Assembly: GCA_012103315.1 (NCBI GenBank)
Contig: WLWZ01000015.1
Coordinates: forward strand, 1 to 64,000
DNA from: Alphaproteobacteria bacterium
Lineage (GTDB): Bacteria > Pseudomonadota > Alphaproteobacteria > MPNO01 > UBA2964
Length of the DNA: 64,000 nucleotides
Direction of reading: 5' to 3'
Notes under the pieces: generated by a model
Database searches by the model: none
What the model was told of the DNA's origin: nothing
What the model saw: the letters and a program-made list of their open reading frames with translations, nothing else
Part shown: positions 34,035 to 38,858 of the stretch, piece after piece
Position numbering within the stretch: the first letter of the stretch is position 1
Layout: each line of letters begins with the position of its first letter
Made by a program: the position numbers and the translations under genes

Positions 34035-34068
34035 TCACCTACACGAGAATGGAGGAATGGAGGAATGG

Positions 34069-35172
34069 ATGACGATTGTTTCTTATGAAGATGCGCCCGT
34101 GCCAATCCGTTTGGATTTGCTTGAGGCGCATCAGCGCGCCTGGCAACGCCTCGCCTCGCCAGGCACTTGGCTAACCGGTGCAACACGGGTCGCGATAGCC
34201 CAGGAAGTGCGGAACGCAAAACAATGTAGTTTGTGCGTTGAGCGTAAAGCCGCGCTTATGCCTTACAACGTAACAGGGACCCATGACACGGTTTCAGATT
34301 TGCCAGAAGCACAAGTCGAATTGATCCATCGGTTGGCAACGGACTCGGCACGGCTAAGACGGAATTGGGCCCGCGAACTAATTGAGAGTGGGTTGAGTGA
34401 AGAGGAGTACGTCGAAACCGTTGGTGTCGCCTGCACGACCATTTCCCTGGATACGTTCGCCTATGCAGTAGGAATGCCGTCCCGCGAAATTCCGATGCCG
34501 GTCGATGGTGATCCCAAGAAAGTACGTCCCACCGAAGCGAAACAGGGAGATGCCTGGGTGCCGTGGATTGCGCCGGACGACGCCAGCGACGGGGATCGCG
34601 AGACCTTTGGGCCGGGTGTATCGAATATTCGCAGGGCCTTAAGTCTCGTCCCTGCTGAAGCCCATGGATTTTTTGATCTGGTTTCGAACCAATATCTGTC
34701 CGCGGAACAGATGAAAGATTTTGCGACAAAGTTCCGAGCGATTACCCGGGCGCAAATCGAACTGATCGCGGGTCGAATATCGGCCATCAATCAGTGCGCC
34801 TATTGAACCACCAGCCATACGGCACTGCTCCGTGCGAGCAGCGAACAGACTGGTGACGAGATCGATTTAAGCAGCGTAATGGGTGAAGCAGAGGGCGATG
34901 GCGGCGTGCCAAACGGTGCTATGTTGGTCAATTTTGCTGAAGCAATTGCTGGTGATGATGCCCAACGTTTACAAGACGCTCGCAATGAGGTGACGGCGAC
35001 GCTGGGTGCTGACGGATTGGTCGACGCTTGTGGTATCGCGGCAACGTTCAATGCGATTGACCGAATTGCGGATTCAATTGGTATTCCGATTGACGACGTT
35101 CGGCTTGAGCCGACGGCCGAATTCCGGCGTGAGCTCGGTATTGATGCGTTTCCGTCGCGGCTTGAAAGCTAG
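34069..35172 (+). CDS. AhpD-like alkylhydroperoxidase-related selenoprotein (in-frame TGA read as selenocysteine)
   Basis: The frame runs from ATG 34069 (GGAGG five bases upstream) to TAG 35170-35172, with one TGA at 34804-34806. Read through, it gives 367 residues. The N-terminal half carries a CxxC at Cys53/Cys56 (KQCSLCVERKAAL) and resembles the carboxymuconolactone decarboxylase/AhpD fold. The second half reads ELIAGRISAINQCAY, then TGA, then TTSHTALLRAS. In AhpD proteins this site is CxxC followed by SH, so residue 246 should be the second redox Cys: a CxxU site with Cys243. The remainder (VDACGIAATFNAIDRIAD) is standard AhpD C-terminus, so the gene is not broken. The likely role is thiol-dependent peroxide reduction. 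sel genes are not in the window. Confidence 0.87.
34809..34855 (+). promoter_or_regulatory. bacterial SECIS-like stem-loop directly after the in-frame TGA
   Basis: An upper stem CTGCTC (34825-34830) / GAGCAG (34836-34841) closes a 5-base loop CGTGC with G at position two. An outer stem CACCAG (34809-34814) / CTGGTG (34850-34855) encloses it. The loop starts 24 bases after the TGA, inside the range described for bacterial SECIS elements bound by SelB. Both stems are perfect although the region must also encode protein. Confidence 0.78.
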
Positions 35173-36976: not shown

Positions 36977-38344
36977 ATGGCAGCACCACCCGCATCTCCG
37001 GGGACCCCGATCTCCAGTAAGAGTGAACTCATCGAGTATCTTGAGGCAGGGAACAAACCGGCTTCGGAATGGCGTATCGGCACTGAACATGAAAAGTTTG
37101 TGTTTCAGAACAATACGTTTCTCCCCGCGCCATATGAAGGCGATTGGGGCATCCGTGCCTTACTTGAAGGGCTACAGCGCTTTGGCTGGGAGCCAGTGAT
37201 GGAGAACGGAAATCCTATTGCGCTTACGCACGCAAATGGTTGTTCGATAACGCTTGAACCTGGCGGGCAGGTCGAACTGGCAGGGGCGCCGCTCGAGAGT
37301 ATTCACCAAACTTGTAATGAAGTTCATTCACATCTCAATCATGTAAAAGAGGTTGCGGAGGAACTTAATATTGGCCTGATCGGCGTTGGCTTTAATCCGA
37401 AGTGGAAACGCGACGATATCCCGTGGATGCCGAAGGGCCGCTACCAAATTATGCGTGACTATATGCCAAAGGTCGGCTCTCTCGGCCTCGACATGATGGT
37501 TCGGACGTCGACTGTGCAGGTTAATTTGGATTTCCAATCCGAAGCCGACATGGTCAAGAAGTTCCGGGTGTCTTTGGCACTCCAACCAATCGCAACGGCG
37601 TTGTTTGCAGACTCTCCGTTTTTGGAAGGCAAGCCAAGCGGCTATCTGTCGTATCGTAGTCATATCTGGGAAGACACTGACCCGGACCGTTGTGGAATTT
37701 TGCCGTTCGTTTTCGAAGACGGTATGGGTTTCGAACGCTATGTGGACTATATGCTCGATGTCCCGATGTATTTCGTCTATCGCGATGGCACGTATCTTGA
37801 TGCGTCAGGTCAATCGTTCAGGGACTTCCTGAAGGGAGATTTGCCAGCATTGCCCGGAGAAAAGCCAACGTCGGGAGATTGGGGAGACCATCTGACGACG
37901 GTATTCCCAGAAGTGCGGCTTAAAAAGTTTATTGAAATGCGCGGCGCGGATGGTGGCCCATGGCGTCGGTTATGTGCATTGCCGGCGCTTTGGACTGGGC
38001 TTCTTTATGATCAAACCTCGCTCGATGCGGCCTGGGACCTCGTCAAAGACTGGACCCCAGAGGAGCATCAATATCTGCGGATTGAAGTCCCTAAACAGGC
38101 TTTGAAAACGCCGTTTCGAAATAAAGCTATTCAGGATGTTGCTCGCGAAACACTCGAGATTGCCAGTGCAGGCTTACGGCGCCGGAATCGCCTCGATGCG
38201 GTTGGGACAGATGAGACTGGTTTCCTTGGGACACTCTATGAAATCGTCGATAGTGGGCGAACGGCTGCCGAGGAAAAGCTTGAGAAATTCCACGGGGTCT
38301 GGGATGGTAATGTTGACCCCATTTTTGATGAGTACGCCTACTAG
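36977..38344 (+). CDS. gshA: glutamate-cysteine ligase
   Basis: First step of glutathione synthesis: ATP-dependent gamma-linkage of glutamate to cysteine. The 455-residue protein is of the proteobacterial/plant-type GCS2 class, with RIGTEHEKFVF (about 34-44), LEPGGQVELAGAPL (about 93-106), MVRTSTVQVNLDFQ and FIEMRGADGGPW (about 315-326). All metal- and substrate-binding stretches appear intact. The glutathione supply is relevant to the neighbouring thiol-redox selenoprotein and the peroxiredoxin, though that link is inference. Confidence 0.94.
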   Translation: MAAPPASPGTPISSKSELIEYLEAGNKPASEWRIGTEHEKFVFQNNTFLPAPYEGDWGIRALLEGLQRFGWEPVMENGNPIALTHANGCSITLEPGGQVELAGAPLESIHQTCNEVHSHLNHVKEVAEELNIGLIGVGFNPKWKRDDIPWMPKGRYQIMRDYMPKVGSLGLDMMVRTSTVQVNLDFQSEADMVKKFRVSLALQPIATALFADSPFLEGKPSGYLSYRSHIWEDTDPDRCGILPFVFEDGMGFERYVDYMLDVPMYFVYRDGTYLDASGQSFRDFLKGDLPALPGEKPTSGDWGDHLTTVFPEVRLKKFIEMRGADGGPWRRLCALPALWTGLLYDQTSLDAAWDLVKDWTPEEHQYLRIEVPKQALKTPFRNKAIQDVARETLEIASAGLRRRNRLDAVGTDETGFLGTLYEIVDSGRTAAEEKLEKFHGVWDGNVDPIFDEYAY

Positions 38345-38354
38345 GGTAAGCGGT

Positions 38355-38858
38355 ATGAACAAACTTAGGACATCAATATTAAGTCTGTTGATTGCTGCCG
38401 GGCTAGTTGGTTCCGGTGGGATTACACAGGTGTATGGCCAACAGTTAGTACGGCCTTGGGAACGTGATCTCCAAAGACTTTACAATCAGGATAGAAAAGT
38501 CCTTCAGCCGAGACTTCCCAATCCAGCGCAAGATGCATTGCGAAAATTGCGCCGGGACCCATTAGCTAAACTTGGTCTGCCAGCAAATCAGGCACCTCTT
38601 CCACAAAATTCGCCAGAGACAATTGAGCCAACTTTTTCGCCTAACACCGCTGGGTATGACCGTGATGGGGATGGCGGGGTGACCCGGGAAGAGTATTTCT
38701 CAAGTCAAAGGCGGAGTTACGGAGCTGGAGTGGGTTCGTCGAGTCGACGGCAACGTGCTTTAAGCCGGTTGGATTCGCAATTCCGAGCGGCAGATATTGA
38801 TCGTGATGGCAAAGTCACCGCGCAGGAGCTGAATTCTCTCCCGGGCGCAAGGTTTTAA
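38355..38858 (+). CDS. secreted EF-hand calcium-binding protein
   Basis: A 167-residue exported protein that starts 10 bases after gshA. A signal peptide (about 28 residues, ending VYG) is followed by a basic proline-rich region and two EF-hand loops: DRDGDGGVTREE and DIDRDGKVTAQE. Both keep Asp at positions 1, 3 and 5 and Glu at 12, so calcium binding is likely. The hands are about 50 residues apart. The longer open frame upstream overlaps gshA in another frame and is not coding. Function beyond calcium binding is unknown. Confidence 0.8.
   Translation: MNKLRTSILSLLIAAGLVGSGGITQVYGQQLVRPWERDLQRLYNQDRKVLQPRLPNPAQDALRKLRRDPLAKLGLPANQAPLPQNSPETIEPTFSPNTAGYDRDGDGGVTREEYFSSQRRSYGAGVGSSSRRQRALSRLDSQFRAADIDRDGKVTAQELNSLPGARF

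Follow-up and report, generated by a model that had tools for sequence, protein, structure and literature searches.

The closest described relatives of the gene analyzed here were first reported in 2005, from four sequences, as "hypothetical protein 1", for which the same survey gave the numbers of Cys homologues as 7 and 5 (PMC1088965). A 2026 review table lists this CxxU protein of the Sargasso Sea as the NCBIfam family NF041238 (PMC13188914), an alkylhydroperoxidase-related (seleno)protein (AhpD_rel_CFYUT). No biochemical study of NF041238 proteins was found in the literature searched. Bacterial fused-dimer AhpD-like proteins and their likeness to sestrins have also been described, for YciW and the Corynebacterium alkyl hydroperoxidase, which possess two AhpD-like domains per chain, with the active site located C-terminally in some; unlike for NF041238, selenocysteine is not mentioned for these proteins in the accessible text of that source (PMC11429811). 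In sestrins, the catalytic Cys resides in the N-terminal domain and the motif has been lost from the C-terminal domain (PMC4674687), which, according to the accessible text of PMC11429811, has an electronegative DDYDY hinge instead of an active site.

The present gene lies in a 64,000-nucleotide window (contig WLWZ01000015.1, positions 1 to 64,000) of the genome of a marine alphaproteobacterium. Its frame, 34069-35172, contains one internal stop, a TGA at codon 246, as seen by direct sequence (Table 1). Read through this UGA, the product comprises 367 residues with the site NQCAY-U-TTSHTALLR, in which Cys243 and Sec246 form a CxxU motif. Taken on its sequence and its relatives, this is very probably a functional NF041238 selenoprotein gene in which UGA is read as Sec.

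Table 1. Features of the selenoprotein locus, in window coordinates.
Feature	Position	Strand	Details
Likely ribosome-binding site, GGAGG	34059..34063	+	5 nt before ATG 34069; direct sequence
AhpD-related selenoprotein gene, 367 aa, UGA as probable Sec	34069..35172	+	NF041238 481 bits, residues 13-362; UGA 61/61
N-terminal AhpD-fold domain (model), residues 13-150, CxxC Cys53/Cys56	34105..34518	+	model pLDDT 95.4; structure and profile matches
C-terminal AhpD/CMD domain (model), ~residues 185-350, Glu231/Cys243/Tyr245/Sec246/His250	34621..35118	+	PF02627; 6k40 Z 13.5
Predicted Sec-UGA codon, residue 246	34804..34806	+	sequence; UGA conserved in relatives
SECIS-region lower stem, CACCAG 34809-34814 / CUGGUG 34850-34855	34809..34855	+	predicted fold -17.9 kcal/mol, z -2.1
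bSECIS hairpin CUGCUC-CGUGC-GAGCAG	34825..34841	+	6-bp stem; loop of 5 nt with G as its second letter

Family membership and gene context

The read-through product matches NF041238 with a score of 481.4 bits, where 175 is the cut-off, over residues 13-362 of the protein and positions 1-356 of the 357 in the model. This equivalog is matched by 33/33 aligned family members, all of which also match the Pfam CMD domain (PF02627). In the present protein, the CMD match covers residues 223-266 and runs across the TGA, with 32.8 bits over a cut-off of 23; the score against TIGR01926 is 48.8, below the cut-off of 81.8. By these profiles, the protein is a well-supported member of a named and catalogued selenoprotein family. 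It shares with NF041238 and hypothetical protein 1 the same length, domain order and CxxU site, and apart from CAYUT in place of the CFYUT of the family name, no further difference was found. An earlier note, made from the DNA letters, had implied that the two-domain CxxU form was new; given the NF041238 model and its listing as hypothetical protein 1 in the review table (PMC13188914), this kind of protein was already known and the novelty was overstated. What that note had read from the frame itself holds, namely the single TGA at 34804-34806, confirmed by direct sequence, and the AhpD/CMD pattern on both sides of it, which the Pfam match spans.

The genome carries a second NF041238 gene, L092 (C18:180760-181824), also with an in-frame TGA, and in the class sample a single genome can have as many as four Sec paralogues. 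In the family tree, the included copies from one genome mostly fall into separate clades. At L064:4001-6189 and L086, the selenoprotein gene is present as a tandem duplicate with UGA in both copies. In a phylum-wide sample of 398 genomes, the family was found only in the window's own genome; moreover, no relative of the protein was detected in plasmid records (tblastn, E up to 1e-20) or in viral contigs scanned with the family alignment.

The neighbouring genes encode an enoyl-CoA hydratase, a CoA ligase-like protein, UbiA, an RNA methyltransferase and a glutamate-cysteine ligase, and the gene order is syntenic in close relatives. As both flanking genes are on the opposite strand, the selenoprotein gene stands alone; a functional hint from the neighbourhood was considered and set aside for this reason. 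Among the neighbouring genes, no known AhpC or reductase gene was recognised. A separate ORF at 38136-38858 (240 aa), with an EF-hand match, shares ~200 bases, in another frame, with the terminal part of the glutamate-cysteine ligase gene, and its real start probably lies further downstream.

Domain architecture and active site

Profile comparison revealed that the two halves of the protein are homologous (E 2e-5), with Cys53/Cys56 aligned with Cys243/Sec246. The structure was modelled with Cys substituted for Sec, and the whole-protein and N-terminal-domain models both reached a pLDDT of 95. Searched alone, the N-terminal domain retrieved AhpD structures in all of the top 13 entries, with Z scores of 8.6-3.9, ahead of the first unrelated row at 3.0; for the C-terminal domain, the best single-domain structure is 6k40, with a Z score of 13.5. 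In these models, both halves are AhpD folds. The C-terminal half resembles the TIGR01926 peroxidase-related enzymes (6k40, 3c1l, 2prr) in fold, in relay residues and in the position of the CxxC/CxxU motif; however, those enzymes are single-domain proteins with Cys, whereas the present protein is a two-domain form with Sec. The N-terminal CxxC pointed out in the earlier note is present as Cys53/Cys56. At least 90% of the aligned members have this pair, and it is nearly universal outside clade L086-L088, where a 7-residue alignment gap removes the N-terminal CxxC.

Comparison of the motif with that of YP_296737.1, whose relay consists of Glu74, Cys86, Tyr88, Cys89 and His93 (PMC4674687), showed that the surroundings of Sec246 have the same spacing as those of Cys89, with Glu231 at -15, Cys243 at -3, Tyr245 at -1 and His250 at +4. 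Glu231, Cys243, Sec and His250 are invariant in the family alignment, and Tyr245 is nearly so. The N-terminal counterparts are Val41, Cys53, Leu55, Cys56 and Lys60, which lack the Glu and His of the relay; as judged from the alignment, the full Glu/Cys/Tyr/Sec/His relay is found only in the C-terminal half.

In AhpD, the second Cys is the attacking residue. Since the N-terminal half lacks the relay though its Cys pair is conserved, we infer that Sec246 is the attacking and Cys243 the resolving residue, and that the N-terminal pair is auxiliary or structural. In the proposed mechanism, Sec246 would most likely act as the nucleophile towards a hydroperoxide (probably alkyl) or an oxidised peroxiredoxin, being activated by the Glu231/Tyr245/His250 relay, and Cys243 would resolve it by forming a selenenyl-sulfide. 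As for the N-terminal CxxC, it may hand on reducing equivalents or may be structural. Peroxidase-type chemistry is the rather probable activity of the predicted enzyme. A genuine selenoprotein with another function, such as a thiol-disulfide/selenol oxidoreductase, a dehalogenase-like enzyme or a redox sensor, is a possibility that we entertain tentatively: the debrominase Bmp8, matched with a Z score of 12.2, is also an AhpD-fold protein, and sestrins have regulatory roles (PMC4674687 and the accessible text of PMC11429811), but every residue of the alkylhydroperoxidase relay is present here with the correct spacing.

Structural comparison of the whole model gave human Sestrin2 as the best match, with a Z score of 17.0 and 3.4 Å over 235 residues at 12% identity, and both proteins have two AhpD-fold domains per chain. 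Compared to sestrin, the arrangement is reversed, in that the C-terminal domain here keeps the CxxU active site. No sestrin was matched by sequence, either in Pfam or in the PDB profile search, and the likeness is therefore one of fold, in a class of helical folds that score high easily. It is unlikely, if conceivable, that NF041238 represents a Sec-dependent bacterial analogue of sestrin, that is, a pseudo-dimer of fused AhpD domains, one of them a Sec peroxidase and the other, with a CxxC and no proton relay, a reductase or sensor module. Were this so, the protein would couple peroxide removal to redox signalling or to an internal electron relay.

Probable reading of the UGA codon as selenocysteine

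The published rules for a bSECIS element call for a loop of 3-9 nt, a stem of 4-16 bp, a G as first or second loop nucleotide, a distance of 16-37 nt from the UGA and an MFE of at most -7.5. The hairpin at 34825-34841 agrees with these rules, being placed 24 nt downstream of the UGA with an energy of -7.5 kcal/mol, exactly on the limit. In a single gene, such a hairpin is weak evidence, because about 3.7% of the TGA triplets in the window pass the same rules and 4.9% of synonymous recodings of 34069-35172 retain the 6-bp stem. Across the family, the energy cut is passed by only 26/56 members when a strict hairpin is used; the mean stem length is 5.4 bp, whereas synonymous recodings give 1.1, with 2.0 as the highest value among 1000. 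The codons of stem and loop are near-fixed, with CTC in 55/55, CGT in 53/55 and GCG in 43/43, whereas their usage in the family is 27%, 14% and 41%, respectively. Pairing and codons kept far beyond coding needs make the family-wide case for a SECIS element a strong one at the level of aligned sequences. In members L046 and L081, the stem is maintained with different letters and different residues, and the paralogue L092 has the variant CAGGCUC-CGUGC-GAGUCUG; in the divergent clade L086-L088, the UGA is kept and the hairpin is weaker or different. A genome scan for the hairpin core returned the present gene, its paralogue on C18 and four more sites with one mismatch.

The genome encodes the complete Sec machinery, with selC, selB and selA contiguous at C22:37779-41221 and selD on C21; selC scored 67.6 bits, and tRNA-Sec(tca) was confirmed by ARAGORN. 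All four genes that the earlier note proposed to look for are thus present, including selB and tRNA-Sec, whose absence it would have taken as counter-evidence and which adjoin selA. Among 385 genomes of the class, selA occurs in 27/27 of those with the selenoprotein gene versus 29/358 of those without it (Fisher p = 3e-26); the genomes are mutually related, so this value overstates their independence, but there is still no exception. On contig 21 of the same genome, a 755-residue frame (L026:262-2529) combines an FAD/NADH dehydrogenase-like N-terminal part with a C-terminal selD part carrying CGGC, which agrees with the Ndh-SelD fusion known from marine bacteria (PMC2398784). With this machinery, the hairpin would direct SelB and tRNA-Sec to decode the UGA at 34804-34806 as selenocysteine, resulting in a 367-residue protein of two fused AhpD-fold domains.

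The UGA is found at the homologous codon in 61/61 gene copies with a readable site, which represent 56 distinct proteins of 32-100% identity, and exactly one TGA is present in 48/48 class-wide matches. One copy without TGA, L049, was left out, as its match ends just before the site, near a contig end. Such conservation in the compared sequences is far beyond chance and, together with the machinery and the SECIS element, supports the CxxU centre of Cys243 and Sec246 proposed in the earlier note. No full-length Cys form was found among the relatives in the sampled Alphaproteobacteria, in which only Sec was seen. Distant single-domain peroxidase-related proteins from the same genome and its relatives carry NxCxYCxxxH, with a Cys aligned with Sec246. 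The claim that the family has Cys at this site therefore stands for the distant single-domain proteins and fails for the full-length relatives in the class; homologues with neither Cys nor Sec, which would have spoken against the site, were not seen, the UGA being present throughout the relatives and Cys in the distant homologues.

Downstream of the UGA, dN/dS is 0.07-0.10 in three orthologue comparisons, which argues that this part is selected as protein, in frame. Upstream, dN/dS is 0.08 in the sole comparison with an estimable dS; synonymous sites are saturated in the other two, where third-position changes predominate. By these codon comparisons, both halves are under purifying selection.

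Three other readings of the TGA were weighed. As UGA is normally a stop and an ATG is available at 34879, the locus might be split into a 245-residue protein ending at the UGA and a separate protein beginning at that ATG; however, the stretch between them (UTTSHTALLRASSEQ...) is conserved as protein with invariant T247 and H250, domain and fold cross the UGA, and the ATG lies in mid-domain with no ribosome site in the sequence shown, which makes two genes very improbable, as the earlier note had argued. The 25-contig assembly is a draft and TGA is one base from TGC or TGT, but a pseudogene, or an ordinary Cys codon misread in sequencing, is in practice refuted by a TGA common to 56 distinct proteins from many genomes and single in every class-wide match, by purifying selection after the UGA and by the conserved SECIS element. 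A frame left open under a changed code is by itself no evidence of Sec, but decoding of the UGA as Trp or another standard residue, by code change or readthrough, has a negligible probability in view of the TGA that ends 12/47 long ORFs in the window, the complete Sec machinery, the co-occurrence with selA and the Cys aligned in distant homologues.

Read as a selenoprotein gene, the locus adds one more confirmed member to a catalogued selenoprotein family, whose two-domain architecture connects NF041238 with the fused-dimer AhpD proteins for which kinship with sestrins has been discussed. In the sampled Alphaproteobacteria, the family appears to be Sec-only although Cys versions of the fold are common, a contrast that suits it well to the question of what Sec offers and Cys does not.
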